NCBI GenBank assembly: GCA_017429525.1
Contig: JAFROT010000001.1
Span: forward strand, 1 to 57,407
Source: Bacteroidaceae bacterium
GTDB lineage: Bacteria; Bacteroidota; Bacteroidia; Bacteroidales; Bacteroidaceae
DNA: 57,407 nucleotides
Reading direction: 5' to 3'
Every line of letters starts with the position of its first letter. Position 1 is the stretch's first letter. Under the pieces are notes generated by a model. That model was not told where the DNA came from. It did not search any database and was given only the letters and a program-made list of their open reading frames with translations. A program made the position numbers and the translations under genes. This document shows, one piece after another, positions 7,171-54,491 of the stretch.

Positions 7171-7259
7171 CAAGTTGAGTTAAGTTTCGGAAGTAATGAA
7201 TATGTTAAGAATTAGCCCCTACGGGGTTTGAGCTTCCGAAACTTCAATCAAGTTGAGTT
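7171..7259. repeat. Inverted repeat flanked by 11-bp direct repeats
   Basis: A 12-bp inverted pair, AAGTTTCGGAAG at 7182-7193 and CTTCCGAAACTT at 7233-7244, encloses a small CCCCTACGGGG hairpin. It is flanked by the direct repeat CAAGTTGAGTT at 7171-7181 and 7249-7259. The layout resembles a very small inverted-repeat element with target duplication, although four bases (CAAT) separate the right arm from the right direct repeat. It sits in the divergent spacer between the GH3 operon and the next gene. Confidence 0.6.
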
Positions 7260-7273
7260 TTTTGGCATTTTCC

Positions 7274-7304
7274 TTGGCCGTCCCGCCGTTTATGCTTACC
7301 TTTG
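7274..7304 (+). promoter_or_regulatory. Bacteroidetes promoter for the SGNH hydrolase gene
   Basis: TTGG at 7274-7277 is followed after 19 bases by TACCTTTG at 7297-7304. Both the sequences and the spacing match the Bacteroidetes -33/-7 promoter. Transcription should begin near 7311, leaving a leader of about 25 bases before the ATG at 7336. Confidence 0.75.
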
Positions 7305-7335
7305 CAGTGAAATACTATCAAAAATCAGATGGTCA

Positions 7336-8214: not shown

Positions 8215-8281
8215 ATCCTTTCGATGCTTTTCATTTTCCTACTTTCAGCTTTCGCCCTATTCGCTCTTCCACTTTCTCCCC

Positions 8282-8818: not shown

Positions 8819-8827
8819 CGATTGGCC

Positions 8828-10261: not shown

Positions 10262-10274
10262 AGGTTGACTTTTG

Positions 10275-16152: not shown

Positions 16153-16232
16153 GCGTTATTGAAAGTTGAAAATGGCAAAAAAAGAAATCGCTCACGGCGT
16201 GTTAAGAACCTAACCGATAGTTGTGCTCTAAT

Positions 16233-28089: not shown

Positions 28090-28148
28090 TATAGGCAATT
28101 CTTACCAATTCCTTCTTTATCCGTAGACATTAATTCAATTCTTTGGAC

Positions 28149-31100
28149 ATGAAAAGTTCTGCTCCCCTCTCACAATCGCAAAACGGACTTTACGTCGAGT
28201 GTATCAGCCGCACAGGCGAGGTCTGCTACAACCTACCTTATATATATGTATTGGATCATAGCCTTGATGCCGACCGCCTGTGTCGCGCCATCGAGACCGC
28301 TGTTATGGCTCATCCTACGCTCTTCACACGCATCAGCGTTGATGATACGGGCGAACCGCGTCAGTCGATAGAGCCTGAAGCCACGTTCTCGATTACCGTT
28401 GAGCGGGTTGCCGATTTCGAGCAGGTCAAGTCGCAGCTGGTCCTTCCTTTCGACATCCTCAGCGACCGCCTTTTCCGCATGCGCCTGTTCGATGACGGCA
28501 TTCACTACTATCTCTTCATCGACTATCACCACCTCATTGTAGACGGCACTTCGATGACGTTGATGCTCAACGACATCGACAGCGCCTATCACGGTCGTCA
28601 TCTTGAGCCCGAAATGCGTTCGCTGGCTCAGCAAGTGGAGGTGGAGCAGGCCGCTCGTGAGAGCGAAGCCTACGACGAGGGCAAGCGCTGGTATGCGCAG
28701 CACTTCGACTGCGCCGACACGTTCACCCAGCTGCTGCCCGACCTCGAGGAGCCCGAACGGCGCGAGGACAACCTCGTGCGGGTGCTCAGCGTGCGCCCGG
28801 CTGCCGTCGATGATTTCTGCCATCGCACGGGCATCTTCCGCAGCACTCTCTTCACAGCTGCCTACGCTTACCTCCTGGCTAAGTTCAACAACGAACAGGA
28901 GTCGCTCTTCACCACCGTCTTCAACGGCCGCAAGGACAAAGCCCTCAGCCGCACCGTAGGAATGTTCGTGAAGACGCTCCCCGTCTATTCCAAGTTCGAT
29001 GCCCAGACATCCGTGCTCTCTTTCCTGCAGGCCGCGCAGGAGCAGATGAGCGGCTGCCGCGACCACGACGCCTATTCCTATTCCGACATAGTTCATGACC
29101 TGGGCCTGCAGAGCAATTCGATGTTCGCATGGCACGGCACGCTCTTCTCCAATGAGCAGATGGGCGGGCGCCCTATGCAGACCGTGCGACTGGGCAACAG
29201 CACCCTCGATGCTTCGCTCTACCTCAAGGCCTTCATCTACGATGGCGCTTACCACGTCAAGGCGGAATACAACGCCAACGAATACTCCGCCGCGCTCATA
29301 TCACAGCTGCTCGAGAGCTACGAGGCCGTCGTCGAAGGATTCCTCTGTCATGATCTCTTGAGCGATGTTGACATCACCACGGCAGCGCAGATCGACTCTC
29401 TCGATGCCTTCAACCAGACCGACGTCGCCTACGACGACAGCCAGACAATAGTCTCGCTCTTCCGCCGGCAGGCCGCCGCAACGCCCTCTGCCATGGCCTT
29501 GGTCTATGAGGACCGCCGCTTCACTTACGCCGAGGTCGATGACCTCAGCGACCGCATCGCAGCGGCCATTGCTGCGCGCGGCCTCGCGGCCGAGGACGTC
29601 GTGTCGGTGCTCATCCCTCGCTGCGAATGGATGGCAATAGCCTCGCTCGGCGTGCTTAAAGCCGGATGTGCCTATCAGCCCCTCGACCCGTCGTACCCCA
29701 CAGAGCGCCTCAACTTCATGATGAAGGATGCCGGAGTCAAGCTGCTTATTGCCGATGCCGACCTCCGCCATCTTGTTGATGAGTATGAGGGCGAAGTGCT
29801 GCTGACCAGCGCCCTCGCGTCGCTGCCACCGGCTGGCGATCTGTCGGCCATAGAGCCGCCCACGCCTGCGTCGCTCTTCATCCTCCTCTATACGTCCGGC
29901 TCCACGGGCGTGCCCAAGGGCTGTCAGCTCACGCACGCCAACCTCGTGGCCTTCTGCCACTGGTACCAGCGTTTCTATCAGCTGAAGCCGGAGCACCGTG
30001 TCGCAGCTTATGCCAGCTATGGCTTCGATGCCAACATGATGGATATGTATCCCGCCCTCACTTGCGGCGCTTGTGTCTACATCATCCCCGAAGAGCTGCG
30101 CCTGGACCTCATCGCGCTCAATGAATACTTCGAGCGCGAGCACATCACACATGCGTTCATGACCACTCAGGTGGGCTATCAGTTTGCCACCAGCATCGAG
30201 AACCACACCCTGCTGCATCTCTCTACGGGCGGCGAGAAGCTGGCATCGCTAACCCCGCCCGAGGGCTACCATTTCAACAATCTTTATGGCCCTACGGAAT
30301 CTACTGTCTGCGTGACCGCCTATTTCGTTGACAGGAAGTTGAAAGAGATTCCCATCGGCCGACAGCTCGACAACCTGCGCATCTACATCGTAGATCCGCA
30401 AGGCCACCGTCTGCCCATTGGCGCTGCCGGCGAGCTATGGGTAAGCGGGCCTCAAGTCAGTCGCGGTTATCTCAACCGCCCCGAGAAGACAGCTGAGGTC
30501 TACATCCCAAACCCCTTCGTGAGCGAAGAACCGGAATCCCTGCGCCTGAAATATGCACGCGTATATCGCACAGGCGACATCGTTCGTTTTCTGCCCTCGG
30601 GCGACGTGCAGTTCGTAGGCCGTCGCGACGGGCAGGTGAAGATTCGAGGCTTCCGCATCGAGCTGAAGGAGGTGGAGGCCATCATTCGCGAGTTCCCCGG
30701 AATCAAGGACGCTACGGTGCAGGCCTTCGAAGAGGACGGCGGCGGCAAGTTCATTGCGGCTTACGTAGTCAGCGACAGCACCGTTGACATCGAGGCCCTC
30801 AACCAATTCATCCTCGACGAGAAGCCCCCGTATATGGTCCCTGCCGTAACTATGCAGATTGATTCAATACCTCTGAATCAGAACCAGAAAGTCAACAAGC
30901 GGGCCCTGCCCAAGCCTGAGAAGAAGGCCGCAGCGGTCGAGGAGAGCAATGTCCCGATGAACGTCCTCGAGCAGGAACTGCATTCGCTGATTGCCGGCAT
31001 TGTCAACACCAAGGATTTCGGTGTCACCACCATCCTTGGTTATGCCGGTCTGACGTCGATCTCGTCGATCAAGCTGGCCGTTCAGATCAACAAGCGCTAT

Positions 31101-34100
31101 GGCGTGGCGCTCGACTCGAAGTCGCTCGTAAAGACGGGCACGCTCCAGTCCATCGAGAATGCCATACTCGCCAATCTGCTGGCACACAAGGAAGATGCCC
31201 CATGCACGCCCGACAGCAGTGGCGGCGCTGAGCCCGTGGCAACCACTACGGCTCCGCTCTCCTATGCCCAGACGGGCGTCTATTTCGAATGCCTGAAAGA
31301 CCCGGCTTCGACTATTTACAACATCCCTTATCTCCTCACCTTCCCCGAAGGAGTGGAGGCACAGCAGCTGGCCGACGTCGTCAGGCGCGCCATAGTGGCT
31401 CATCCTGAGCTCAGCGTGCATTTCACTACACAGGGTGATGCCATTGTTCAGACCACCGACGACGCAGTGCCCGTCGGAGTGTCGGTGGCTCAGATGACCG
31501 ACGAACAGCTCCAGCACTATAAGAATGAGTTCGTGCGCCCGTTCAACCTTCAGAAGGCGCCCCTCTACCGCGCCGAGGTAGTGCAGACAGAGAGTGCCGT
31601 GCACCTGTTGCTCGACGTACACCACCTCGTCTTCGACGGCGGCTCGGCCGACCTCTTCATACGTGAGATATGCTCCGCCCTCGAAGGCGCAGCCATCGAG
31701 CGTGAGGGCTACACCTATTTCAATTTCGTGGCCGATCAGCAGGCCGCCGAGCAGAGCGACGATTTCAGCGCTGCACAGCAGTTCTTCGCCGAACGGCTGG
31801 CCACCTGCGAAGGCGCCAGCGAGATCCCGACCGACCTGCCGAAGACCGACCAACAAGGCTTCATCGGCGAGGCCGTCTGCCTGCCCGACTTCGAGCGCGC
31901 CGCAGCCTTTTGCCGTCAGCAGGAGATCACGCCCGCGCATCTCTTCCTTGCTGCCACGGCCTACGTCGTCGCACGCTACACCAACAACCGCGAGGTCTAT
32001 CTCTGCACCGTCAGCAGCGGCCGTTCCAACCTCCGCATTGCCGACACGGTAGGTATGTTTGTCAATACGCTTGCCCTCGGCCTCTCAATCGACGACGTGA
32101 GCGTAGGGCAGTTCCTAAAGCAGGTCAGCCAGACCTTCGACACCACATTGCGCCATGAGGACTATCCCTTCGCACGCATCGCCAGCGACTACGGTTTCCG
32201 TCCGGCCATCGCTTATGCCTATCAGGTGGGCGTCCTCTCGGAATATAAAGTTGGAGGCAAGCCCCTTGCTCACGAACTCCTGGAACTGAACGTTCCCAAG
32301 TTTAAGATCAACATTAAGATAGAGTCGCGCGGTGTTGTCGTGCAGTACGACGATTCGCTCTACAGCGCCCGTCTGGCCGAAGCGCTGGCCGAGAGCATCG
32401 TGGCTGTGGCCGACCGCATGACTGCCCAGGCCGACACTCGTGTGCGCCAGCTTTCGATCGTCAGCCCGCGTCAGGAAGAGGAACTCAGCCACCTGCGCCA
32501 GACGGCCACTGGCGAGGCACCCTTCCGCTTCTTCCACGAATGTATTCATCATTTCGCTGTAAAGCTGCCCGAGCGCGATGCTCTCGTCGCTGTTGATGCC
32601 ACCTACTCATATCTCGAGATGGATGCCATCACCGACCGCATCGCAGCAGCCCTGCGCCAGCGCGGAGTCGGCGACGGCGATCGTGTCGCCCTCTTGCTGC
32701 CGCGCACCAGTCGCCTCATCCTCGCGCTCTTCGGTGTGCTCAAGGCCGGAGCCGCCTACATCCCGTGCGACCCCGAATACCCGGCCGACCGTGTCCGGCT
32801 GATCCTCGACGACAGCGAAGCCCGCTACGTCATTACCACGGCTGATCGTCTCGACGCCGTCTCGCCCGAGAAAGCTATCGACGTGGAAGAGCTCATAAAC
32901 TCTCCGCTCGGCTTTGCCGCTTCGCCTAGCGAAGAACCCTCAACCCTCCGCTCTCAACCCTCAATCACCCCCGACGACCTCGCCTACCTCATCTACACTT
33001 CAGGTTCCACAGGGCGGCCCAAGGGCGTGATGCTGCACCACCGCGGCATCTGCAACTATCTCTATGGTCATCCGGCTAACGTCTTCGCCAACGCCGTGCT
33101 TACCGATGCCGACCGCGTCCTCAGCGTCACGACCATCTCGTTTGATGCTGCCTTGCAAGATATCGGTATGGCCTACTTCAACGGCAAGACGCTCGTAGTG
33201 GCCACCGAGGAGCAGGCCAATAACCCGCTCGACTTGGCGCGCCTCATCCAGGAGCAGCACATCACGATGGTCTCTGGGACGCCGTCGCGCTGGCAGACGT
33301 GGCTGACGAGCGACGACTTCTGTCATGCCATAGCCGGCGTGCGCATCTGCCGTGCCGGCGGCGAGAAGTTCTCCGACCAGCTGCTGCAGCAGTTGCGCAA
33401 CGTCACGCGCGCGCGAATATTTAATTGTTACGGCCCCACAGAGATTACCGTGGCCTCGAACAATGCGGAACTGACGCATGCCGAAATCGTCACCGTAGGT
33501 CGCCCGCAGCTCAACGTCCGCGAGTTCATCGTCGACAGCGATGGCAACGAGTTGCCTGTAGGCGTCGTCGGTGAGCTCTACATAGGCGGTCGCGGTGTGG
33601 CTCATGGCTACAACAACCTCGACGAGATGACCCGCGAGCGCTTTATCGACTACCATGGTGTACGCATCTATCGCTCAGGCGACTACGCCCGATGGCTGCC
33701 CGATGGCAATGTAGTCATCCTCGGCCGCACCGACCACCAGATCAAGCTCCGCGGCCTCCGCATCGAGTTGGGCGAGATCGAGAACGTAATGCTCAAGGTA
33801 GATGGCATCGACAAAGTCGTCATCCTCATCCGCAAGCTCGGCGGCAAGGAGCACCTCTGCGCCTACTACACTGCCGACCGCGAGATAGCCCCCGATGCCC
33901 TCAAGGCCGAAATCTCAAAGAGCCTCACGCAATATATGGTGCCGACGGCCTACCTCCAGCTCCCGGCCATGCCAATGACGCCCAACGGCAAGACCGACGT
34001 CAAGGCACTGCCCGAGCCACAGCTGGCCGTCACCTCAGCCTATGAGGCTCCGCAGAACGCCACCGAGCAGACCTTCTGCGACATCTTCGCCTCCATCCTA

Positions 34101-35462
34101 CAGATGGATAAGGTCGGCGCCACCGACAACTTCTTCGAGCTGGGCGGCACGTCGCTCGTCGTCACCCGCGTCATCATCGAGGCCGACAAAGCCGGGCTCC
34201 ATGTGGCCTACGGCGATGTCTTCGCCAACCCGACACCACGCGCTTTGGCGCGCCTCATCACGGGCGAGAGCGCTACCGATGTTCCTGACGAGGTGAGCGG
34301 CTTCGACTACACGGCCATCAACAACGCCCTGGCCGCCAACACCCTCACCGCCTTCCGCAGCGGCGAGCGTCAGCAGTTGGGCAACGTCCTGCTCACCGGT
34401 GCCACCGGCTACTTAGGCATTCACATCCTGCGCGAGCTCATCGACTCCGACGCCCCCAACATCTACTGTCTCGTGCGTGGCAAGAGCGAGGACGCTGCCG
34501 AGCGACGCCTGCGTACGCTGCTCTACTACTACTTCGCCGAGGCCTTCAAGCCTCTCTTCGGCACGCGCCTCCACGTTGTCCTTGGTGATGTCACCAGCGA
34601 CTTCGGCGAGGGCCTCGACGTGGACACTGTCATCAACTGTGCTGCAATCGTCAAGCACTTCAGCGAGGGCACCGAGATTGAAGACGTCAACATAGGCGGC
34701 GCTCGCCGTTGCGTCGATTTCTGCCTCCGTACCGGCGCTCGCCTGATCCATATCTCTACGGCCAGCACGCGAGGCCTCTGGGTCGGCGAACCGAAGGATG
34801 AGATCTTCACCGAGCAGCGTCTCTACATGGGTCAGTACCTTGGCAATAAGTATATCTATTCGAAGTTCATGGCCGAGCGCCTCATCCTCGATGCCGTGGC
34901 CCTGCACGGCCTCCATGCCAAGATTATGCGTGTAGGTAACCTCGCTGCCCGCTCTACCGACGGCGAGTTCCAGGCTAACTTCTCCACCAACTCGTTCATG
35001 GGCCGCATCAAGGTCTACAATATGTTGGGCTGCTGCCCCTACGCCATGCGCAACAAGCGCGTGGAGTTCTCGCCCATCAACGAGGTGGCGCGCGCCATAC
35101 TCCTGCTGGCCACGACGCCTGCGGCCTGCTGCGTCTTCCATCCTTATAATATCCACACGCAGTTCCTCGGCGACGTCCTCGAAGGTCTCACCTCAGTGGG
35201 CGATGGCGTCCGCTTCGTGGAGCAAGAGGAGTTCGCTGCCGCTATGGAGGCTGCAAAGGACGACCCGCAGAAGGCTCGCCAGATGTCTGCGCTCTTGGCG
35301 TATCAGGATATGGCCCATGGGCAGAAGACGACCGACGTCAACCGCGACAACGACTACACGACTCAGGTGCTCTACCGCCTCGGTTTCGCTTGGTCGCCCA
35401 CGTCGTGGGACTACGTCGAGCGTATGCTTACCGCCATCGGCGGCTTCGGCTTCTTCGAATAA
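28149..35462 (+). CDS. Dimodular nonribosomal peptide synthetase, C-A-T-C-A-T-R
   Basis: A 2437-residue synthetase; the ATG at 28149 is preferred over a TTG two codons earlier. C1 (about 1-440) has HHLIVDG at 127-133. A1 (about 440-920) has the A3 loop YTSGSTGVPKG near 580 and NQKVNKRALP near the end. Carrier T1 has Ser970 in the variant GLTSISS, where GGDS is usual. C2 has HHLVFDG at 1158-1164. A2 has YTSGSTGRPKG at 1616-1626 and TPNGKTDVKALP. Carrier T2 has Ser2002 in LGGTSL. The reductase domain has the NAD(P)H motif TGATGYLG at 2083-2090 and YxxxK at 2235-2239. Reductive release gives an aldehyde or alcohol. The leading C domain with intact HHxxxDG suggests an N-acyl starter. Dimodular synthetases with this ending make peptide aldehydes that can cyclise to pyrazinones. 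A-domain substrates were not assigned. Residues 1596-1606 look repeat-derived. Confidence 0.95.
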   Translation: MKSSAPLSQSQNGLYVECISRTGEVCYNLPYIYVLDHSLDADRLCRAIETAVMAHPTLFTRISVDDTGEPRQSIEPEATFSITVERVADFEQVKSQLVLPFDILSDRLFRMRLFDDGIHYYLFIDYHHLIVDGTSMTLMLNDIDSAYHGRHLEPEMRSLAQQVEVEQAARESEAYDEGKRWYAQHFDCADTFTQLLPDLEEPERREDNLVRVLSVRPAAVDDFCHRTGIFRSTLFTAAYAYLLAKFNNEQESLFTTVFNGRKDKALSRTVGMFVKTLPVYSKFDAQTSVLSFLQAAQEQMSGCRDHDAYSYSDIVHDLGLQSNSMFAWHGTLFSNEQMGGRPMQTVRLGNSTLDASLYLKAFIYDGAYHVKAEYNANEYSAALISQLLESYEAVVEGFLCHDLLSDVDITTAAQIDSLDAFNQTDVAYDDSQTIVSLFRRQAAATPSAMALVYEDRRFTYAEVDDLSDRIAAAIAARGLAAEDVVSVLIPRCEWMAIASLGVLKAGCAYQPLDPSYPTERLNFMMKDAGVKLLIADADLRHLVDEYEGEVLLTSALASLPPAGDLSAIEPPTPASLFILLYTSGSTGVPKGCQLTHANLVAFCHWYQRFYQLKPEHRVAAYASYGFDANMMDMYPALTCGACVYIIPEELRLDLIALNEYFEREHITHAFMTTQVGYQFATSIENHTLLHLSTGGEKLASLTPPEGYHFNNLYGPTESTVCVTAYFVDRKLKEIPIGRQLDNLRIYIVDPQGHRLPIGAAGELWVSGPQVSRGYLNRPEKTAEVYIPNPFVSEEPESLRLKYARVYRTGDIVRFLPSGDVQFVGRRDGQVKIRGFRIELKEVEAIIREFPGIKDATVQAFEEDGGGKFIAAYVVSDSTVDIEALNQFILDEKPPYMVPAVTMQIDSIPLNQNQKVNKRALPKPEKKAAAVEESNVPMNVLEQELHSLIAGIVNTKDFGVTTILGYAGLTSISSIKLAVQINKRYGVALDSKSLVKTGTLQSIENAILANLLAHKEDAPCTPDSSGGAEPVATTTAPLSYAQTGVYFECLKDPASTIYNIPYLLTFPEGVEAQQLADVVRRAIVAHPELSVHFTTQGDAIVQTTDDAVPVGVSVAQMTDEQLQHYKNEFVRPFNLQKAPLYRAEVVQTESAVHLLLDVHHLVFDGGSADLFIREICSALEGAAIEREGYTYFNFVADQQAAEQSDDFSAAQQFFAERLATCEGASEIPTDLPKTDQQGFIGEAVCLPDFERAAAFCRQQEITPAHLFLAATAYVVARYTNNREVYLCTVSSGRSNLRIADTVGMFVNTLALGLSIDDVSVGQFLKQVSQTFDTTLRHEDYPFARIASDYGFRPAIAYAYQVGVLSEYKVGGKPLAHELLELNVPKFKINIKIESRGVVVQYDDSLYSARLAEALAESIVAVADRMTAQADTRVRQLSIVSPRQEEELSHLRQTATGEAPFRFFHECIHHFAVKLPERDALVAVDATYSYLEMDAITDRIAAALRQRGVGDGDRVALLLPRTSRLILALFGVLKAGAAYIPCDPEYPADRVRLILDDSEARYVITTADRLDAVSPEKAIDVEELINSPLGFAASPSEEPSTLRSQPSITPDDLAYLIYTSGSTGRPKGVMLHHRGICNYLYGHPANVFANAVLTDADRVLSVTTISFDAALQDIGMAYFNGKTLVVATEEQANNPLDLARLIQEQHITMVSGTPSRWQTWLTSDDFCHAIAGVRICRAGGEKFSDQLLQQLRNVTRARIFNCYGPTEITVASNNAELTHAEIVTVGRPQLNVREFIVDSDGNELPVGVVGELYIGGRGVAHGYNNLDEMTRERFIDYHGVRIYRSGDYARWLPDGNVVILGRTDHQIKLRGLRIELGEIENVMLKVDGIDKVVILIRKLGGKEHLCAYYTADREIAPDALKAEISKSLTQYMVPTAYLQLPAMPMTPNGKTDVKALPEPQLAVTSAYEAPQNATEQTFCDIFASILQMDKVGATDNFFELGGTSLVVTRVIIEADKAGLHVAYGDVFANPTPRALARLITGESATDVPDEVSGFDYTAINNALAANTLTAFRSGERQQLGNVLLTGATGYLGIHILRELIDSDAPNIYCLVRGKSEDAAERRLRTLLYYYFAEAFKPLFGTRLHVVLGDVTSDFGEGLDVDTVINCAAIVKHFSEGTEIEDVNIGGARRCVDFCLRTGARLIHISTASTRGLWVGEPKDEIFTEQRLYMGQYLGNKYIYSKFMAERLILDAVALHGLHAKIMRVGNLAARSTDGEFQANFSTNSFMGRIKVYNMLGCCPYAMRNKRVEFSPINEVARAILLLATTPAACCVFHPYNIHTQFLGDVLEGLTSVGDGVRFVEQEEFAAAMEAAKDDPQKARQMSALLAYQDMAHGQKTTDVNRDNDYTTQVLYRLGFAWSPTSWDYVERMLTAIGGFGFFE

Positions 35463-35501: not shown

Positions 35502-36845
35502 ATGAAAACCATAGAACTTGCTGAGGCCAAACGCCTCGTCGCTGAAGGCGGGCGCCTTCCCGACGCCGAACGCCGTCAGCTGCAGCAACAGCGCCTGCAC
35601 GAGCTGGTGGCCTACGTTCGCGAGCACTCCCCATATTTCGCACGCCATTATGCCAATGTGCCTGCTGACTTCCGCCTCTCCGACCTGCCGCCGACAGAGA
35701 AGCCTACGCTCCTGGCCAACTACGACGACTGGGTGACCGACCGCCGCATTCACCTGGCCGACGTGCTCGAGTATGTCAACCGCGATGCCTCAAAGGACCA
35801 GAGCCGCTTCCTCGGCGACTACACGGCCCTGCGCACCTCGGGCTCTACGGGCAACCCCCTGCCCATGGTCCGCGACGACTATCACAACAAGATTCACGGA
35901 CAGCTCATCGGGCAGCGCCTGCTCGAAGGCGCAAATGCCGATGCCATGGACATCTCAAAGCATAGGCGCGCATCGCTCATTCACCTCTCAAACGGAGCTT
36001 CGAGCTACGGAGCCTTCCTGCGCATGAAAGCCGCCCACCCCGAGTGTGCCGACAACCTGCTCGGCATCTCGGTCCTCGAGTCGGTAGATTCCATTGTAGA
36101 GAAGCTCAATGCTTTCCAGCCCGAGACCATGGCCGGCTATCCGTCGATGATGGTGCGGCTGGCCGTGGAGCAACTGCAGGGGCGCCTGCATCTCTCGCTC
36201 AAGCATCTGGCCACTTCTGCCGAGATGCTCAGCGAGGAGAACTTCCACCTGCTGCGCGAGGCCTTCCAATGCCCCGTCGCCAACAACTACTGCATGACCG
36301 AGGGCGGCGAGATCGCCATGACCCACAATTGCCCGCATCTCCATATCAACGACGACTGGGTAATCGTGGAGCCTATCGACAAGGACGGCAACCTCATCAC
36401 CGACCCCGACCAGTGGTCAGATGCCATCCTCGTCACCGACCTGAGCAACTTCGTGCAGCCCATCATCCGCTACCGCGTCGGCGATGTCGTACGCGTGCGC
36501 CCCTCGACTTACGACTGTAGCCCGCTGCCCATCCTGCAGATCCAGGGTCGCAGCTTCGACAACTACACCATCTGCGGCCAGACGTTCAACGTCGTAGGTA
36601 TTTTTGCCAAGGCAGAGGTGTGGCCCGACCTGCAGCGCTTTCAGTTTGTCCAGACCGACAACTCCACCATCCAGGTGCGTGGCGTCTGCAAGACATCTCC
36701 CGCCGAGGTGTTACCGTCGCTCTGCGACCGCCTCAAGGCGTTCCTGGCCGAGGAGGGCTGTCCCGATGCCCGCTTCACGTGGTCGGCCGAGCCGCTCATC
36801 CACAATGAGCGTGGCGGCAAGATACCTCTCTATGTCAAACTTTAA
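35502..36845 (+). CDS. PaaK-like adenylate-forming enzyme
   Basis: A 447-residue cytoplasmic enzyme of the phenylacetate-CoA ligase (PaaK/CapK) branch of the adenylate-forming superfamily. It has the P-loop LRTSGSTGNPLPM near residues 110-122, the central AGYPSMMVRLA, YCMTEGGEIAM near 260-270 and IRYRVGDVVRVRP near 324-336. It starts 39 bases after the NRPS stop and ends 18 bases before the MATE gene, so the three form one operon. It could make the acyl or aryl adenylate/CoA used by the first condensation domain of the NRPS, or modify the released product. Family members elsewhere also act in capsule and exopolysaccharide loci. The substrate is not readable. Confidence 0.85.
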   Translation: MKTIELAEAKRLVAEGGRLPDAERRQLQQQRLHELVAYVREHSPYFARHYANVPADFRLSDLPPTEKPTLLANYDDWVTDRRIHLADVLEYVNRDASKDQSRFLGDYTALRTSGSTGNPLPMVRDDYHNKIHGQLIGQRLLEGANADAMDISKHRRASLIHLSNGASSYGAFLRMKAAHPECADNLLGISVLESVDSIVEKLNAFQPETMAGYPSMMVRLAVEQLQGRLHLSLKHLATSAEMLSEENFHLLREAFQCPVANNYCMTEGGEIAMTHNCPHLHINDDWVIVEPIDKDGNLITDPDQWSDAILVTDLSNFVQPIIRYRVGDVVRVRPSTYDCSPLPILQIQGRSFDNYTICGQTFNVVGIFAKAEVWPDLQRFQFVQTDNSTIQVRGVCKTSPAEVLPSLCDRLKAFLAEEGCPDARFTWSAEPLIHNERGGKIPLYVKL

Positions 36846-36863: not shown

Positions 36864-38183
36864 ATGAACAACGAGGAACGGCAGAAACTGACGACCCTCT
36901 TTTGGCGATATCTGTGGTCGAGCATTCTCATCACACTCTCGGGATGCCTCGGTAACGTCGTCGATGGTATAATCGTAGGTAAGCTGATAGGAGCCGACGG
37001 CGTCAGCGCTATCAACCTGTCAAAGCCCGTCGTGCAGCTTATGATGACGTTGAGTCTGCTCCTTGCTGCCGGCGGTAGTATGCTCGTGGGGTTTGCCATT
37101 GGCAAGAAAGACTTCGCAAGAGCACGCTACGTCTACACTCACTCCGTCATTAGCAATCTCGTCATCAGTTTCATCTTCACGGTCGTAGGGCTCGTGGCGC
37201 CCATGGCCGTCGCTGCGCTCCTTTGCGACAACCCCCACCTGCTGCAGCCCACGCTGGAATACCTGCGGCCGATGCTCTATGGTGCCCCGGCCTACATGAT
37301 GATGTGGACCATCAGCGTCATGATCAGCACCGATGGCAGTCCGCGCCTGGCATCGCTGGCCATCATCGTCGATAATGCCGTAAACCTCGGGCTCGACCTC
37401 GTCTTCATCCAACTGTGCGGATGGGGTATTGCAGGCTCCTCGGCAGCGACCGTCGTAGGTCATCTGGTGGGCATAGCTATCATGCTCTACCACTACCGGA
37501 GCGCCGACTGCAACCTGCGCTTCTCGTTTCGCCACGATGCGCCGGAGGGACTCAACATCATCTCGCAGGGAGCGCCGCTGGCACTGGCCTCCGTGTGTCT
37601 CACCGTGCTTCTCTTCACCTCCAACAGCATCGTGCTCAGCACCCTCGGGCGCAACGGCATCTTCGTCTTCGCAGTGTGTATGAACCTGCTGCAGGTCTAC
37701 AACCTCTTCGTGGCAGGCACTTGCCGCACGCTGCAATCGCTCGGCGCCATTCAAGCTGGCATGGGCGATGGCGAGGCGTTCGGCCTCGTGTTGCGCAAAT
37801 CATTTGGTTTTATCACCGTGGCCATGGCCGTCATCTGCCTGCTTACGTTCGTATTCCCTTCGACCATAGCACACCTCTTCGGAGCCACTGACGAGGCCGT
37901 CGTCGCAGAGTGCTGCCGCGCCCTGCGCATCTTCGCCCTGAGCTTCATTCCTTTCAGCTATATCTACGTGCTGATGATCGTCTACAAACTCTACGGCCAG
38001 CACCGCATGGCGCTCTTCATCTCTGTGGCACTCTCGCTAACGGTCATCCCCGTGCTGTGGCTCATGGCCCGCACGGCCCCCGGCGCTCTCTGGTACAGCT
38101 ACCTCATTGCTTACCTCATTGAGGCCGCGCTCATCTTCTTCCTCCATCGGATGTGGAAGATACAATTTGTTATCAAGAACTAA
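36864..38183 (+). CDS. MATE family efflux transporter
   Basis: A 439-residue inner-membrane transporter with about 12 hydrophobic helices. The N-terminal pattern (SILITLSGCLGNVVDGIIVG, INLSKPVVQLMMTLSLLLAA) and AGSSAATVVGHLVGIAIML are typical of MATE/NorM-like proton- or sodium-driven exporters. It is the last gene of the NRPS operon, so export of the peptide product or self-protection is the likely role. A 15-bp inverted repeat follows. Confidence 0.9.
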   Translation: MNNEERQKLTTLFWRYLWSSILITLSGCLGNVVDGIIVGKLIGADGVSAINLSKPVVQLMMTLSLLLAAGGSMLVGFAIGKKDFARARYVYTHSVISNLVISFIFTVVGLVAPMAVAALLCDNPHLLQPTLEYLRPMLYGAPAYMMMWTISVMISTDGSPRLASLAIIVDNAVNLGLDLVFIQLCGWGIAGSSAATVVGHLVGIAIMLYHYRSADCNLRFSFRHDAPEGLNIISQGAPLALASVCLTVLLFTSNSIVLSTLGRNGIFVFAVCMNLLQVYNLFVAGTCRTLQSLGAIQAGMGDGEAFGLVLRKSFGFITVAMAVICLLTFVFPSTIAHLFGATDEAVVAECCRALRIFALSFIPFSYIYVLMIVYKLYGQHRMALFISVALSLTVIPVLWLMARTAPGALWYSYLIAYLIEAALIFFLHRMWKIQFVIKN

Positions 38184-41768: not shown

Positions 41769-43538
41769 ATGCAAACATTCAACGAACTCAAAAAGGTCCT
41801 GAAGCGAGACAATTCTGCCCTGCCTACAGCGCGTGTCGCACTCGTAGGCGATACCGCGACGCAGTTGTTGGCTACCGCTCTGCGAGGTATGGCTGTGCAA
41901 CGCGGCTTTCAACTCGAGCTCTTCGAGGCTGAGTACGCACAGGTTGAACGGCAGTTCCTTGATCCAGCGAGTGAACTTAGGGCTTTTGGTGCCGACTATA
42001 TCGTCCTCTTCCAATCCACTCACAAGTTGGCAGAGCATCACAGCCTACTTGATGCTGATCGACAGGCCGTTCTGGCCGATGATCGTCTGGCTTTTGTTCA
42101 GTCGGTGTGCAATGACGAAGCTTTCAGCCGTTCCAAGATGATTTGCTTTAACTATCCCGAGATCGACGACAGCGTCTTCGGGAACTATGCCAATCGGATT
42201 GCGACTTCTCTCACGTACCAAGTGCGTCGACTGAACATGATGCTGATGGAACTGAGCCAGGCGCAGTCGAACCTCTTCATCTGCGACCTTGCAGCCTTGC
42301 AGAACAAGTTCGGACGTGACTGGCTGTTCGCGCCTAACGTTTATGTGAGCACTGAGATGGTTGTGAGCATCGATGCCTTGCCGTATGTTGCCGCCCGTGT
42401 GGTGGACATCATCAGTGCACTGCGTGGACAGGTGAAGAAGTGCCTTATCCTCGACCTCGACAATACGCTCTGGGGCGGTGTTATCGGCGATGATGGCCTC
42501 GAAGGTATTCAGCTTGGCCATGGGCTCGGCATTGGAAAAGCATTCAGTGAGTTCCAGCAATGGGTAAAAAAGCTTCGTCAGCGGGGCATTATCATCTGTG
42601 TAGCCTCAAAGAACGACGAGGCTACGGCCAAGGAACCTTTCCTTCATCATCCCGATATGGTGCTAAGTCTGGACGATATTGCTGTATTCCAAGCCAATTG
42701 GGACACGAAGGTCGACAACATTCGCACCATCCAACACATCCTCAACATCGGGTTCGACTCGATGGTATTCCTTGATGACAATCCCTTTGAACGTGCTATT
42801 GTGCGCGAGCATATTGAAGGTATAACAGTGCCTGAACTGCCCGACGACCCTGCTCTCTATCTGGAGTATCTCTACAGCCTCAACCTCTTCGAGACGGCCT
42901 CTTACAGTGTGGCTGACAAGGATCGCACTCGTCAGTATCAGGTCGAGGCGCAGCGCGTACAGCTGGCGCGTACCTTCGACAGCGAACAGGCCTTCCTCCA
43001 CTCCTTGAATATGCGCTCCGTGATTACTGGCTTCACGGCGTTCAACACGCCACGTGTGGCACAGCTCACGCAGCGTAGCAATCAGTTTAATCTACGCACC
43101 ATTCGCTACACTGAGGCCGACATCGCGGCATTGGCTGCCGACGCCTCTGTGATCGACCTTGCCTTCACCCTCGAAGACCGCTTCGGCGACAACGGGCTGA
43201 TTGCCGTCGTAGTGATGCGTCCCTTGGACGGCGATACGCTTTTTATTGACTCTTGGCTGATGAGTTGTCGTGTACTGCGTCGTGGCGTGGAGAATTTTGT
43301 CTTGAATACGATGGTGGAACGAGCTCGAGCGGCTGGCTATCAACGTCTGATTGGCGAGTACATTCCTACGCCCAAGAACCGCATGGTCGAGCATCATTAC
43401 GAGTCGCTGGGCTTCCAGCTTATGCCTGCTGATGCCGCTGCAGCCGTTTCTGTGCGTTACGAACTCTCGCTCGATGACTATAGCCCAAAGCCATGCGAAA
43501 TTGAAGCCGCCAGCTCTGACGGCAATGGTGCTCAATGA
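41769..43538 (+). CDS. FkbH-like HAD-IIIC protein (candidate glyceryl-ACP synthase)
   Basis: A 589-residue FkbH-type protein. An N-terminal region (about 1-210) is of the kind found in Bacteroides FkbH relatives. The HAD core has motif I LDLDNTLWGG (Asp229, Asp231), motif II VASKND (Ser280), a Lys in WDTKVDNIR near 314 and motif IV FLDDNPFER (Asp336, Asp337). The C-terminal 200 residues are GNAT-like. In polyketide pathways FkbH proteins take 1,3-bisphosphoglycerate, remove a phosphate and load the glyceryl group on an ACP thiol. Here the next gene encodes a lone ACP, followed by MBOAT and SGNH genes and no polyketide synthase. I infer that it charges the ACP with glycerate, or a similar C3 acid, for transfer across the membrane. 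Confidence 0.88.
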   Translation: MQTFNELKKVLKRDNSALPTARVALVGDTATQLLATALRGMAVQRGFQLELFEAEYAQVERQFLDPASELRAFGADYIVLFQSTHKLAEHHSLLDADRQAVLADDRLAFVQSVCNDEAFSRSKMICFNYPEIDDSVFGNYANRIATSLTYQVRRLNMMLMELSQAQSNLFICDLAALQNKFGRDWLFAPNVYVSTEMVVSIDALPYVAARVVDIISALRGQVKKCLILDLDNTLWGGVIGDDGLEGIQLGHGLGIGKAFSEFQQWVKKLRQRGIIICVASKNDEATAKEPFLHHPDMVLSLDDIAVFQANWDTKVDNIRTIQHILNIGFDSMVFLDDNPFERAIVREHIEGITVPELPDDPALYLEYLYSLNLFETASYSVADKDRTRQYQVEAQRVQLARTFDSEQAFLHSLNMRSVITGFTAFNTPRVAQLTQRSNQFNLRTIRYTEADIAALAADASVIDLAFTLEDRFGDNGLIAVVVMRPLDGDTLFIDSWLMSCRVLRRGVENFVLNTMVERARAAGYQRLIGEYIPTPKNRMVEHHYESLGFQLMPADAAAAVSVRYELSLDDYSPKPCEIEAASSDGNGAQ

Positions 43539-43581
43539 TAGAGTCGCTGAGCAGATCACGAATTCTCATGATATTTCAACT

Positions 43582-43818
43582 ATGGAAAGAGAAACTATTT
43601 ACAACAAATTGAATGAAATTTTTGCTGACGTACTGGACCTCGATGAGGTTCAACTGACTGATGATACGACGGCCGACGATATCGAGGAGTGGGACTCTCT
43701 GTCGCACATCCAACTTGTCGTTGCCGTAGAGAAAGCATTTGGCATCAAGTTCACTGCTCTCGAAATCATGCGGTGGAAAAATGTCGGAGCCATGGTAGAT
43801 TCTATTCTGAGCAAGTAG
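43582..43818 (+). CDS. Acyl carrier protein of the FkbH-MBOAT cassette
   Basis: A 78-residue free-standing carrier protein. The ATG at 43582 (MERETIYNKLNEIFADVLDL) is chosen because carrier homology begins there, though the frame stays open upstream into the FkbH gene. The attachment serine is Ser39 in EEWDSLSHIQ. The domain is complete and acidic, as expected of a carrier. It lies 43 bases after FkbH and three bases before the MBOAT gene. It is probably primed by the phosphopantetheinyl transferase at 23230 or a housekeeping AcpS, and it occupies the position DltC has in Dlt operons. Confidence 0.92.
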   Translation: MERETIYNKLNEIFADVLDLDEVQLTDDTTADDIEEWDSLSHIQLVVAVEKAFGIKFTALEIMRWKNVGAMVDSILSK

Positions 43819-43821
43819 TCC

Positions 43822-45270
43822 ATGGTCATTAATAGCATCACGTTCTGGCTGTTCTTTGCAGCCATGGCGTTGCCCTATTTCCTCTGTTTCAATCAGAAAC
43901 GGAGTCAGAATGTATGGCTGCTCATCGCCTCCTATGTGTTCTATGGCTGGGCTGACTGGCGCATACTGCCGCTGCTCGTTATCGTGACGGCCGTATATTA
44001 TGGACTTGGCCTTGCCATCGCCAAAAACAATCATGCCAACCCTCGTCGTGCATCGAGCCTTACTACGCTCGGTGTCGTTTCAGGTGTTGGCATCCTGTTT
44101 TATTTCAAGTATTTCGAGTTCTTTGTTCGTGAGATGGCCGGACTTTTTGCTTCATTCGGTCTGCCCGACAGCATTCGAACGCTGCACATTGTCATGCCTA
44201 TAGGCATCAGTTTCTTCACGTTCAAGCTGATGGGGTATGTCATCGAGGTCCATCGTCAGACCATTCGTCCCACACGCGATGCTGTTCAGTTCGCCACCTT
44301 CATCGCGTTCTTCCCTACGATCCTCTCGGGACCTATTGACCGTGCTGAGGCTTTCCTGCCTCAACTTGACGAGGTTCGCCATTGCCGCGTTAGCGATGTC
44401 TCCGAAGGCCTGAAGCGAGTGCTATGGGGCTTGTTCTTGAAGGTTTGCATCGCCGACGTCATCGCACCTTGGACCGATGCAGTATTCCTCAACTATCAAC
44501 ATCACAATGCCACAACACTCCTCGTGGCTGCACCTCTTTACCTTATCCAACTCTATACCGATTTCTGCGGTTTCTCGGAGATGGCGATAGGTGTGGCACG
44601 TGTCCTGGGATTGCGTGTAGCTGAGAATTTCCAAAGGCCCTTTATGGCCAAGAATGTTGCCGAATATTGGCGGCGTTGGCATATGTCGCTGACCACTTGG
44701 ATCACCGACTACGTTTTCATGCCCTTGAATATCGCCTGGCGCAACTGTGGACAGTGGGGACTTTACGCTGCAACCCTCACCAACCTTGTCGTCATCGGCG
44801 TCTGGCATGGGGCCAACTGGACCTATTTCTGGTTCGGTGTCTACCATGGCCTGCTGCTTTGCATCGTCACGGCTCTCGACAAACGCCGCAAGCGTTTTGA
44901 GAAAGCTCATCACTTGAAGAATAACGAGCCCTATATCTGGAGTCGTCGTCTGCTCACGTTCTTTTGCTTTACGCTTGGCTCTGTGCTCTTCCGTGCCACT
45001 TCGGTCACCGACTTTATTGGTACACTTGCTCGCCTTGGTCACGGCTTCGGACCTCTCTACACCGAGGAGTTCTCCAGCCTTGTCCTTTGTGCATTCCCTG
45101 CTATTACGCTGATGTTCCTGCGTGAATGGGCGGCCGAGTATGGACGCAACATTCATTTTATGCATGCGCGCGACGTTCGTCTGCGCATGGTCTCCATCGT
45201 CCTGTTGATCGTCTATATCGTCTATGCCGGACAACTCGAGGGGCAGTCATTCATTTATTTCCAATTCTGA
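43822..45270 (+). CDS. MBOAT family membrane O-acyltransferase (DltB/AlgI-like)
   Basis: A 482-residue inner-membrane O-acyltransferase of the DltB/AlgI branch with about ten helices. Family blocks are NVWLLIASYVFYGWADWR near 30-47, MPIGISFFTFKLMGYVIEV near 125-143, ENFQRPFMAKNVAEYWRRWH with His287, and GVWHGANWTYFWFGVYHG with the catalytic His329. It ends with the AlgI-like FIYFQF. Members take an acyl group from a carrier on the cytoplasmic side and pass it to an extracytoplasmic acceptor. It starts three bases after the ACP gene, which strongly suggests that the ACP-bound group is its donor. The acceptor is unknown. Confidence 0.95.
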   Translation: MVINSITFWLFFAAMALPYFLCFNQKRSQNVWLLIASYVFYGWADWRILPLLVIVTAVYYGLGLAIAKNNHANPRRASSLTTLGVVSGVGILFYFKYFEFFVREMAGLFASFGLPDSIRTLHIVMPIGISFFTFKLMGYVIEVHRQTIRPTRDAVQFATFIAFFPTILSGPIDRAEAFLPQLDEVRHCRVSDVSEGLKRVLWGLFLKVCIADVIAPWTDAVFLNYQHHNATTLLVAAPLYLIQLYTDFCGFSEMAIGVARVLGLRVAENFQRPFMAKNVAEYWRRWHMSLTTWITDYVFMPLNIAWRNCGQWGLYAATLTNLVVIGVWHGANWTYFWFGVYHGLLLCIVTALDKRRKRFEKAHHLKNNEPYIWSRRLLTFFCFTLGSVLFRATSVTDFIGTLARLGHGFGPLYTEEFSSLVLCAFPAITLMFLREWAAEYGRNIHFMHARDVRLRMVSIVLLIVYIVYAGQLEGQSFIYFQF

Positions 45271-45274
45271 AGCC

Positions 45275-46159
45275 ATGCGAAAACTCTTCATCAAAGCCCT
45301 TGTTATTCTTGCCCTTGTGGTCTCATTTGACGTTGTTGTGGGGCTAGTCTCACGGCACATCATCCAAGGACTCTCTGACAAACGTTCGCAGATAGCTACT
45401 ATCCAACAAGCTTTGCTTCGTAAGCAGGCTGACGTTGTCATCCTCGGTGCTTCGTGTGCCAAATATCACTATGATTCGCGAATCATTGCTGACAGCCTCG
45501 ATTTGAGCGTCGAGAATACGGGTGTAGGCGGAATGAATATGGTCTACACCGATCTTGTCCTGCAAGCTTTCCTCGAACGCTGCACGCCACGTATCGTGGT
45601 CGTTGATATCTATGGCCAGCTTGATCCAGGCGAAGGACGCCTGCCGCGTCTGAAACCGTTCTATGGTATCAGCCGCCCCGTGACGGCCTACTTTGATAGC
45701 ATCTCTTCGTGGCAGCAGCGTCTGAAACTCTGTAGCGCCCTTTATCGCTACAATGGTACTCTCGACCTTCTGCTTCGTCATTGCTTCAATGCGCCCAACG
45801 ATAGTCATGGCTTTGCCGAAATGGATGCTATCGATAGATGTATGGACACGGTGGAGGTCCGTCGTTTTCATGCAGATGAATCCAAGCTACCTCATCTGGA
45901 GCACGTCGTTAGTCTCTGTCGCGACCATGACATTCAGCTCGTTTTTGTCCTTTCACCTCGTCGCGAACACGATATAAGCCAAGAGCAATGGATAGCCGAT
46001 CTCTGTCGTAAGCGTGGGATTTTGCTCATCAACGAACTCCATGTGCCCGACTACTACACTGCTCCTGGCTTATTTCATGATGACTCCCACCTTAGCGCGG
46101 CAGGGGCTCATCTCTTCTCTCAGCGTGTGGCTGCATGCTTATCTGAACATCTTCGGTAG
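45275..46159 (+). CDS. Membrane-anchored SGNH protein, partner of the MBOAT (DltD/AlgJ-like role)
   Basis: A 294-residue protein with one N-terminal membrane anchor (about 4-26, KALVILALVVSFDVVVGLV) and an extracytoplasmic SGNH domain. The nucleophile is Ser60 in VVILGASCAKYHYD. Block II-like residues are in ENTGVGGMN, and the catalytic Asp-His pair is Asp269/His272 in FHDDSHLSAAG. It starts four bases after the MBOAT stop. MBOAT proteins of the DltB and AlgI type work with such partners (DltD, AlgJ/AlgX), which move the acyl group to its final acceptor. The 3' end overlaps the convergent GH53 gene by 21 bases. Confidence 0.88.
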   Translation: MRKLFIKALVILALVVSFDVVVGLVSRHIIQGLSDKRSQIATIQQALLRKQADVVILGASCAKYHYDSRIIADSLDLSVENTGVGGMNMVYTDLVLQAFLERCTPRIVVVDIYGQLDPGEGRLPRLKPFYGISRPVTAYFDSISSWQQRLKLCSALYRYNGTLDLLLRHCFNAPNDSHGFAEMDAIDRCMDTVEVRRFHADESKLPHLEHVVSLCRDHDIQLVFVLSPRREHDISQEQWIADLCRKRGILLINELHVPDYYTAPGLFHDDSHLSAAGAHLFSQRVAACLSEHLR

Positions 46160-52970: not shown

Positions 52971-54491
52971 ATGGCAAATTTCTTCATTAGAACAAACAAG
53001 ACAAAAGGGAGGGCTACTCTTTATATAAGAGTGCAAAAGGCATCTCCCAAAATTGATTGGCGTTATGTCAACACATATATTGTTGTTGACATTGCCGATT
53101 GGTTGAAATACTATGTGAACGGCGGTTCGTCAGATTGGAACAATTACACAAAATCTGGCAGCGTGGGTGCAGAACTGAAGGAGAAGATGGATAAGGTAGA
53201 AGAAACCGTAAATCTTCTATTCAGTGAGGGGCGAATAAAGAGCAATGCGGACAAACAAGTTATTACGGACGCTCTTTTTGAGTTGGCAAACCATGATGCA
53301 ATTAAAATGCGTGAAGAAATCCGAGAGCGCAAGCAGGAGGAGGAAAAACGTAAATTGCACGAAATTGTTAATTGTTGCGAGTGCTTTATTAAGGGCATAA
53401 AAGAGGGAACAATTAAAGACACAAGATCTGGACGCGCCTACACAATAGGAGCAATCAAGAATTGGGGAACATTTCTTGAGTATCTGAAAGACTACACAAG
53501 ACCAGGAATAACTTTTGAGGAAATTACTCCAGAATGGATTGAGCGTTTTAGGTTGTATTTGGAAAGGAAGGGTTTAATGCCGACAACCATTAACAAGCAT
53601 TTTGGAACTGGTCAGAAACTTTGTAATTATGCAGCCTTAAAAGGATGGAACAAGAACGCAGTTAGCCTTCGAGCATGGCAAATGCAAACCGTCAAGAAAA
53701 GCGAGAAACAGACGGAAATCTATCTTACAGAAGATGAATTAAATGCACTTTATGATATGAAACTCGAGGGGCAGCGTGACAAGGTTAGAGACCTTTTCTT
53801 TTTAGGTGTTTTCAGCGGGCAGCGTGTTAGCGACTTCAGCCAATTTTCACGACACAATTTCACAAAGACAGAGAAAGGAACAAACATTATTCGACTGACA
53901 CAGAAGAAAACGGGGAATAGTGTTGAGGCACCAATTCTGGACGCTCGATGTTATGAGATTTTGCGCAAATATGATTATCAATCTCCAGAAGTACCATTGC
54001 AAAGGGTAAATCTTATTCTTAAAGAGATTTTCAAAGAGCTTGCAACGTCCGTTCCTTCTTTGATGCAGGAATATACCACCGCAATGACGAGACGGGAAAA
54101 GGACGCAGAAAAGACATACCTCCGTTTGTGTCAGAAGTCCATGAATAACGAGCCTATGACAAATAACGAGCGTGCCGAATACCGACGTTTGAAACAATAT
54201 TCAAAGGAACATGACGGAGATCCCGTTTACCGAAGGGATGGACGGGGCAATATCATTAAATATAAATATGAGCTGATAACGAGCCACACAGCAAGGAGAA
54301 GTGCAATAACAAATCTGTCAAAGGCTGGAATTTTGACAGACAGGGAAATAATGGCAATATCAGGACATGCCTCCTTGGAGAATTTGGAGAAATATATTAA
54401 AACGGGGTTGAGTGAGCGAGCCGATGAAATCTTTGAGAAAGTATCAGGAGCGAAGAAAGCGAAAGAAATCAAATTCCAAAAGGAGGCATAA
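52971..54491 (+). CDS. Tyrosine recombinase/integrase
   Basis: A 506-residue site-specific recombinase that would integrate and excise this element. The N-terminal part (about 1-110) has the Arm-type look of Bacteroidetes integrases (TLYIRVQKASPKIDWRYVNT). A SAM-like core-binding domain spans about 130-220 (GITFEEITPEWIERFRLYLE). The catalytic domain has Arg near 284 in FSGQRVSDFSQF, a Lys in TQKKTGNSVEAP, His-x-x-Arg near 438 in SHTARRSAITNL, His near 464 in SGHASLENLE and the nucleophile Tyr474 in LEKYIKTG. The distance from the first Arg to HxxR is about 150 residues because of a charged insertion (about 365-430). Two small ORFs and a terminator follow. Confidence 0.95.
   Translation: MANFFIRTNKTKGRATLYIRVQKASPKIDWRYVNTYIVVDIADWLKYYVNGGSSDWNNYTKSGSVGAELKEKMDKVEETVNLLFSEGRIKSNADKQVITDALFELANHDAIKMREEIRERKQEEEKRKLHEIVNCCECFIKGIKEGTIKDTRSGRAYTIGAIKNWGTFLEYLKDYTRPGITFEEITPEWIERFRLYLERKGLMPTTINKHFGTGQKLCNYAALKGWNKNAVSLRAWQMQTVKKSEKQTEIYLTEDELNALYDMKLEGQRDKVRDLFFLGVFSGQRVSDFSQFSRHNFTKTEKGTNIIRLTQKKTGNSVEAPILDARCYEILRKYDYQSPEVPLQRVNLILKEIFKELATSVPSLMQEYTTAMTRREKDAEKTYLRLCQKSMNNEPMTNNERAEYRRLKQYSKEHDGDPVYRRDGRGNIIKYKYELITSHTARRSAITNLSKAGILTDREIMAISGHASLENLEKYIKTGLSERADEIFEKVSGAKKAKEIKFQKEA

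Follow-up and report, generated by a model that had tools for sequence, protein, structure and literature searches.

The closest described systems to the one reported here are the Dlt operon, the PatA/PatB and AlgI/AlgJ/AlgX O-acetylation systems, and the FkbH proteins that make glyceryl-acyl carrier protein (glyceryl-ACP) in pathways such as those for FK520 and the tetronates. Most of the enzymology of FkbH with 1,3-bisphosphoglycerate is taken here as general background. For suomilide, the origin of the group from 1,3-bisphosphoglycerate is given as likely, and known FkbH domains are described as working in the loading modules of nonribosomal peptide synthetases (NRPSs), in the portions of that report available to us (PMC13122637). 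In PatA, a tyrosine in a C-terminal FXYXXF motif accepts the acyl group and is the proposed carrier from the MBOAT to the SGNH protein. DltB is described as lacking this C-terminal shuttle part and using DltX instead, and PatA and similar MBOATs as having their own shuttle motif and an acyl-CoA donor with no carrier protein, again in the available portions of the source (PMC12148441). Here we describe a cassette of four genes in a 57,407-nucleotide stretch of DNA from a Bacteroidaceae bacterium (contig JAFROT010000001.1, positions 1 to 57,407), referred to in full as the window. The cassette is real, conserved and functionally coherent.

The genes for an FkbH protein, an ACP, an MBOAT and an SGNH protein lie head to tail on the plus strand at 41769-46159, and the open reading frames and the gaps between them (43, 3 and 4 bases) are as the first-pass annotation of this DNA had reported. 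The residues it named are likewise present, namely DLDNT at 229, SKND at 280 and DDNPFER at 336 in FkbH, Ser39 in the ACP, His329 in the MBOAT, and Ser60 with Asp269/His272 in the SGNH protein (Table 1). We consider that this is probably an envelope acylation cassette driven by a carrier protein and working with a glyceryl group. A phosphopantetheinyl transferase would first arm the ACP at Ser39, after which FkbH would move the glyceryl group from 1,3-bisphosphoglycerate onto the ACP as a thioester. On the cytoplasmic side the MBOAT, through His329, would then shift the group off the ACP and onto its own Tyr479 in the FIYFQF tail, which would present it outside, where Ser60 of the SGNH protein (in a triad with His272 and Asp269) would take it and esterify a glycan of the periplasm or the surface. 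In this scheme we infer which acyl group is carried, which way each transfer runs and what the acceptor is, and the gene order, residues, folds, conservation and carrier-linked MBOAT clade described below are what was observed.

Table 1. Genes of the cassette and residues or motifs assigned to the proposed relay (positions in the window).
Feature	Position	Strand	Remarks
FkbH-type protein, predicted to make glyceryl-S-ACP from 1,3-bisphosphoglycerate (loader)	41769..43538	+	589 aa
ACP (acyl carrier protein)	43582..43818	+	78 aa; PF00550 41.4 bits
MBOAT acyltransferase	43822..45270	+	482 aa; PF03062 58 bits
Membrane-anchored SGNH protein, predicted final transferase	45275..46159	+	294 aa
DLDNT, HAD DxD of FkbH, residues 229-233	42453..42467	+	
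FkbH Cys500 (SCR motif), candidate acyl-thioester residue	43266..43268	+	Putative role
ACP Ser39 (DSL), phosphopantetheine site	43696..43698	+	Read from the sequence
MBOAT His329	44806..44808	+	Invariant in 8-row MBOAT alignment
FIYFQF with Tyr479, C-terminal acyl-shuttle motif FXYXXF of MBOAT	45250..45267	+	
SGNH nucleophile Ser60 (GAS)	45452..45454	+	Invariant in 6-row SGNH alignment
SGNH Asp269-x-x-His272	46079..46090	+	His272 invariant, Asp in most rows (one Asn), 6-row alignment

The window FkbH matches PF21211 (273 bits) and exceeds the curated cut-off of TIGR01686 (298.1 bits against 146.65). Its residues 2-381 resemble the solved structure of Bacteroides fragilis BF1531 (3slr, E 1e-161), a protein for which our search of the open-licence literature found no publication. 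We examined 64 loci, counting the window and leaving out L096, which duplicates L027; of these, 47 have a close FkbH with at least 47% identity and 17 a distant one. In an alignment of these fetched sequences, which includes no biochemically proven FkbH, D229, D231 and T233 are kept in 47/47 close and 17/17 distant rows, as is S280-N282 (SKN), and position 500 is Cys in all of the 45 close and 17 distant rows that have a letter at that column. The DxD and SKN motifs, said at first reading to be intact, and SCR as well are therefore kept across close and distant FkbH proteins alike, and the window protein would likely load glycerate from 1,3-bisphosphoglycerate onto the ACP, as far as can be judged from its sequence. 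This assembly, which is 86% complete, has a single PF01648 match, the phosphopantetheinyl transferase that the window encodes on the minus strand at 23230-23952, and this enzyme could arm the cassette ACP. A search of the same assembly found no second MBOAT, and no ACP beyond that of the cassette and the NRPS carrier domains.

Both by sequence (E 3e-36 and 5e-36) and by fold, the solved structures closest to the window MBOAT are those of DltB (8jem/6bug). Its score against the DltB equivalog TIGR04091, however, is 195 bits where the cut-off is 375, and it has a shuttle tyrosine of its own, in a FIYFQF motif that the first-pass annotation did not mention, so that the cassette joins a Dlt-like carrier donor to a self-shuttling MBOAT of the Pat/Alg kind. 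This motif is present in 39/40 MBOATs of the FkbH-locus set, the exception being L106 with FIYFQY. A true Dlt system, with the ACP carrying D-alanine or another amino acid, would agree with the DltB structures and with a relative from the same MBOAT clade that has a DltA-like ligase, but the cassette has FkbH as its loader and no DltA, misses the DltB cut-off and carries its shuttle on the MBOAT, and we hold this alternative to be extremely improbable. We ruled out plain Dlt membership because of the FkbH loader, the score below the DltB cut-off and the shuttle being part of the MBOAT. What survives of the earlier description of the cassette as Dlt-like is the relay from carrier to MBOAT to SGNH protein, which is its best reading; the likeness does not extend to DltA, to the DltB family or to the MBOAT, which is self-shuttling as in PatA and AlgI.

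The window SGNH protein reached the cut-off of no family in Pfam or NCBIfam, which we take to contain a DltD model. Settling its identity by sequence was abandoned, since the one PDB match was an unrelated P450 (E 1.6), and fold was used instead. Its AlphaFold model (mean predicted local distance difference test, pLDDT, 69.5) matches GDSL/SGNH structures, including PatB and OatA; DltD was not among the 50 fold-search matches listed for the model, which excludes nothing. By its modelled fold, the protein would be the expected SGNH partner with Ser, Asp and His.

An FkbH of this type is uncommon: matches at E 1e-40, distant kinds included, were found in 12/201 genomes of the family, 22/395 of the phylum and 28/393 of the order. 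FkbH regions were examined for 51 places, leaving out G452, G304, G343, G323, G791, G732, G672 and the second G823 piece. An ACP gene lies nearby in 42/47 close loci, and an MBOAT gene on the same strand, counted over a span of 4.5 kb upstream and 6.5 kb downstream, in 30/47; the 17 distant loci (less than 47% identity) were kept out of these counts, and only L091 among them has such an MBOAT. All 30 MBOAT loci have an ACP, and 24 have a same-strand SGNH gene by hidden Markov model. Of the other six, L015 and L037 have a divergent SGNH gene upstream, a weakly GDSL-like gene (under cut-off) adjoins the MBOAT in L097, the contig of L025 ends within the locus, and none was seen in L022 and L027. 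A few of these loci also served to build the profiles for SGNH, MaoC, SDR, VOC, methyltransferase, glycosyltransferase and other proteins, so the counts depend partly on them and absences should be read with caution. Next to the 30 control MBOATs (PF03062 loci from 296 phylum genomes, best-scoring first), neither FkbH nor ACP was found within about 1.5 kb on each side (0/30). The claim that the four genes form a conserved unit is borne out by these counts. Failure of the set to be conserved, named beforehand as the finding that would speak against the idea, was looked for, and the genes were found kept together.

The association was also approached from the MBOAT side, by searching 393 order and 201 family genomes with the window MBOAT and viewing 59 loci. 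With the cassette MBOAT profile 17 of them score 522 bits or more, and 16/17 have an ACP, as against 1/42 (L173) of the remaining loci. Of the 17 loci with an ACP, 16 (window included) had also been reached by way of FkbH and L160 alone is new, so the comparison tests the MBOAT clade and does not amount to independent proof. In a quick tree of 114 MBOATs the window protein falls in a 29-row clade with an SH-like approximate likelihood ratio (SH-aLRT) of 100. This clade contains 25 FkbH-linked MBOATs, one with an ACP and a DltA-like ligase (L160/L218) and one with an ACP only (L217), making 27/29 carrier-linked; of the MBOATs that fall elsewhere in the tree, 10 are near FkbH and 75 are not. In this sample, then, almost every member of one MBOAT clade is linked to a carrier protein, and recruitment of other MBOATs seems to have happened several times.

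Similar sets are found in Alphaproteobacteria. An FkbH relative was found at E 1e-30 in 79 of 72,556 plasmid records, 40 of them from Sinorhizobium and 17 from Streptomyces, and five regions were examined. Rhodobacteraceae SC52 has genes for ACP, FkbH, MBOAT, a 358-aa protein with GSS and DAAH, and VOC. On pSymB of Sinorhizobium meliloti ml46, VOC and MBOAT are followed by a 409-aa protein with DPGH (annotated as a TonB-dependent receptor), ACP and FkbH. Tistrella mobilis has FkbH and ACP, with MBOAT, a 340-aa protein with PSS and DGIH, and a methyltransferase on the other strand. The Niveispirillum region lists FkbH, ACP, a WcbI-like putative acetyltransferase and SDR, and no MBOAT. The pSymB record of S. 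meliloti 1021 (L226, about 8700-10750) is without gene annotation and FkbH reads in two frames there; in the record of strain 2011 the FkbH match is in one piece. The three alphaproteobacterial MBOATs end in FIYFNF, FLYQGF and FIYAGF, and DLDNT, SKN, DDNP and SCR are kept in the four FkbH proteins read.

The half of the locus that would supply the acyl group varies between relatives. The plain FkbH-ACP-MBOAT form of the window is the commonest, at 16/30 MBOAT loci. A MaoC-like dehydratase and an SDR reductase stand beside FkbH-ACP in six MBOAT loci and in three loci with a hexapeptide-acyltransferase-like gene; a VOC protein is found in three MBOAT loci and further loci in combination, with one NCBIfam match, under cut-off, to methylmalonyl-CoA epimerase. 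A class I methyltransferase occurs in three MBOAT loci and in three with an opposite-strand MBOAT, transketolase halves in two MBOAT loci and one hexapeptide locus, and a beta-ketoacyl-ACP synthase III (KAS III) and an aldo-keto reductase in one hexapeptide locus each. An FkbH tree requires a minimum of 19 changes of donor type and 9 of exit type; these minima come from one tree with no shuffled control, and our trees were built quickly and have many weakly supported forks. In Phocaeicola paurosaccharolyticus (L033, 6437-8205) FkbH is split into two open frames, followed by open frames for MaoC, SDR and ACP.

By analogy, the MaoC dehydratase may beta-eliminate glyceryl-ACP and the SDR may reduce the resulting pyruvyl-ACP to lactyl-ACP. 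A lactate route through FkbH, dehydratase and ketoreductase proteins has been proposed for the bryostatin loading module. The methyltransferase could similarly give an O-methylglyceryl group, and a VOC epimerase an inverted C2. The window cassette could therefore run the same relay with other cargo, its glyceryl-ACP being altered to a lactyl, O-methylglyceryl or epimeric group by enzymes encoded elsewhere before transfer. The relatives with MaoC and SDR, VOC, methyltransferase or transketolase genes beside FkbH-ACP speak for such cargo, as does L217, an ACP-MBOAT-SGNH set whose genome has its FkbH match elsewhere; the window cassette has no such gene, however, and the plain form is the commonest, which leaves this alternative rather improbable. 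The earlier proposal of a C3 hydroxy acid such as glycerate is upheld to the extent that glycerate is likely the group in the window, but it would not be the sole group for this kind of system, as the dehydratase and reductase, methyltransferase, epimerase-like and transketolase genes of relatives indicate.

The best argument that FkbH loads the donor of the MBOAT comes from L218, where a DltA-like ligase takes its place. This locus (2810-9046) encodes a DltA-like adenylating enzyme, a second AMP-binding protein and a GNAT protein, then ACP, MBOAT and SGNH. The adenylating enzyme scores 284.6 bits with the DltA model, which is under cut-off, and 315.8 against 317.4 for the AA-adenyl domain. 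In the order search at E 1e-40, the genome of L218 (G925) gave no FkbH match. Immediately upstream of the locus are transketolase halves and a further ACP. Two further arrangements were seen. In L217 (6524-9135) ACP, MBOAT and SGNH have no adjoining FkbH, and the FkbH of that genome is about 0.29 Mb away on the same contig, which suggests loading in trans. In L088 (6951-13582) FkbH-ACP stands amid four similar proteins, of which the one tested is a GNAT protein, and an adenylating-enzyme-like gene, with no MBOAT; this is an unexplained further use of the FkbH-ACP pair.

Several observations weigh against a glyceryl-driven acylation relay. Presence is sporadic, in 12 of the 201 family genomes and in 0/12 other listed genomes of the same genus. 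No same-strand MBOAT is present in 17/47 FkbH loci. Four of these run off the contig within about 0.7 kb, L034, L112 and L113 at the FkbH gene itself and L031 0.6 kb beyond, and in L106, L107, L109 and L113 an MBOAT is on the opposite strand. Seven MBOAT-less loci (L018, L021, L030, L033, L035, L089 and L094) have a hexapeptide-acyltransferase-like gene nearby, and L032, L088 and L101 have neither that nor an MBOAT. Five of the 47 have no ACP match; L034, L112 and L113 stop at a contig edge, but 2.7 kb is left in L032 and 9 kb in L101. Two MBOATs of the clade, L187/L216 and L219, have no carrier nearby. The shuttle motif is also present in 25/30 control MBOATs and so marks the MBOAT-SGNH mechanism generally, rather than carrier use or this cassette. 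In the AlphaFold model of the MBOAT the shuttle tail (474-482) has a pLDDT below 50, which makes the distance from the tail to His329 too uncertain to measure, and the SGNH model is of middling confidence. In the Alphaproteobacteria, Pfam at E 0.01 gave no family, FkbH_N included, for the S. meliloti FkbH relative, and none for the SGNH-position proteins of the three MBOAT-bearing sets; the FkbH label in S. meliloti thus rests on a 35% tblastn match and motifs, and the SGNH label on motifs and position. Finally, local profiles found no glycosyltransferase gene within about 9 kb in the window, so its acceptor is not visible.

The acceptor is probably a glycan, as the gene content of relatives would suggest. 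With the same profiles and reach, glycosyltransferase genes were found at 12/30 MBOAT loci and at none of the other 18, the window included. A SASA-type carbohydrate esterase gene directly follows the SGNH gene in L028 (26.8 bits against a cut-off of 24.8), and L016 has a homologue at the same place. Their position is reminiscent of the de-acetylase Ape1, which is encoded with PatA/PatB. Transfer to a small or lipid acceptor such as a nucleotide sugar, lipid A or a phospholipid, and not to a polymer, would suit the 18 loci with no glycosyltransferase nearby, as well as those relatives that have a hexapeptide sugar acyltransferase near FkbH-ACP (in L033 it scores 198.6 with a NeuD/PglB/VioB model whose cut-off is 160.8). 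We regard it as unlikely, because the 12 loci near glycosyltransferases and the esterase adjoining SGNH in L028 point to a glycan, and because an MBOAT and SGNH pair with an outside shuttle is the known build for acylating polymers outside the cell, according to the available portions of the source (PMC12148441).

The remaining alternative is that FkbH-ACP gives a glyceryl starter to an NRPS or other secondary metabolite while MBOAT and SGNH acetylate something unrelated. The earlier remark that no polyketide synthase is nearby fits the annotated window genes, and an NRPS has to be added to it. This protein (28143-35462) has 2,439 aa with condensation, adenylation and thiolation domains in the order C-A-T-C-A-T followed by a reductase, is of the AusA kind (1,103 bits, under the curated cut-off) and ends 6.3 kb upstream of the cassette; at 60% G+C its gene is richer than the cassette. 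The cluster probably makes a dipeptide aldehyde or pyrazinone. The presence of the NRPS and the phosphopantetheinyl transferase in one window would favor a starter role, as would the service of known FkbH domains in NRPS loading modules (PMC13122637, in part). Against it, a full-length NRPS was found at 0/63 related loci (these span 4-22 kb, and some are too short to show one), an ACP is present at 30/30 MBOAT loci, and similar sets occur in another phylum, so that a starter role is very unlikely. Partial NRPS matches of about 500-600 residues occur in L024, L088 and L091. A link between cassette and NRPS was accordingly rejected, with the same caution about short loci.

Other neighbors were considered as well. 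A link to the flanking GH51 and GH53 genes was not retained, with GH51 only in the near relative L025 and GH53 in 0/63 loci. In L025 (34-1371) the upstream GH51 arabinofuranosidase gene is kept at 95% identity, and none was found in the other 62 loci. Near the NRPS, besides the phosphopantetheinyl transferase at 23230-23952, are an AMP-ligase-like protein (35502-36845) and a MATE exporter (36864-38183). Also close to the NRPS, an ABC transporter protein is surrounded by three large sensors (13729-16152, 16221-18482 and 24113-26368), whose domains are PDC/Cache, SpoIIE phosphatase and HATPase. A tyrosine recombinase gene (Phage_int_SAM_5, 52971-54491) has 40.8% G+C in a window of 53.9% and is possibly the edge of a mobile element.

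Taken across relatives, the cassette may belong to a modular platform for surface acylation in at least two phyla, in which the carrier and a clade of carrier-using, self-shuttling MBOATs form a fixed exit and the donor half is freely swapped. We put this forward tentatively and with somewhat less than even confidence, and the list of donor halves that it implies is equally provisional: FkbH could stand for glycerate, added MaoC and SDR for lactate, an added methyltransferase for O-methylglycerate and added VOC for the other enantiomer, with transketolase halves and the DltA-like ligase as further variants. If this is true, bacteria would take the acyl esters of their glycans directly out of glycolysis, and the ester could be predicted from nothing more than the order of the genes. 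The cassette also offers a way into bacterial polysaccharide esters of glycerate, and perhaps of lactate, from the genome side, and its predictions are testable in a harmless model, S. meliloti, which bears a similar set on pSymB.

No description of an FkbH-ACP-MBOAT-SGNH cassette was found in the open-licence literature, and one may be in print elsewhere. What is new here is that relatives vary the donor half, one of them with a DltA-like ligase for FkbH, and that there is a carrier-linked MBOAT clade. With the polyketide and NRPS pathways, exemplified by suomilide in the available portions of its report, the cassette shares the TIGR01686 domain and a partner ACP; unlike them, its product would go to an envelope acyltransferase and not to a megasynthase. 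Two sources of surface glycerate are also comparable. Campylobacter flagellin bears di-O-methyl-glyceric acid, a glycerate-derived group on a surface glycan (PMC3068675), and the locus contains the fkbH-domain gene cj1302 (PMC7099621), but the available portions of these sources describe no MBOAT-SGNH relay. Gellan, a bacterial exopolysaccharide, carries an L-glyceryl group, which is a glycerate ester of the kind proposed here, and the portion of the source at hand names only a glyceryltransferase activity and no gene (PMC9737242).

As in PatA/PatB and AlgI/AlgJ/AlgX O-acetylation, as far as the source is available, an MBOAT with a catalytic His and FXYXXF works with a separate SGNH-fold protein; those systems use acyl-CoA without a carrier, whereas the cassette co-encodes the ACP and FkbH of its predicted donor (PMC12148441). 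As in the Dlt operon (DltA, DltB, DltC, DltD and DltX, for D-alanylation of teichoic acid), loader, carrier, MBOAT and SGNH protein are encoded together, with the carrier gene beside the MBOAT gene and, in the cassette, a putative carrier-bound acyl donor. Unlike Dlt, the loader is FkbH and not an adenylating ligase, and the shuttle tyrosine is on the MBOAT and not on DltX; the gaps of the cassette hold no separate DltX microprotein, a search confined to the cassette and not extended to the rest of the genome. The named relatives of the cassette are Bacteroidota and Alphaproteobacteria. The cassette is thus a hybrid, neither a Dlt operon nor a plain PatA/PatB system, with a donor half that can change.

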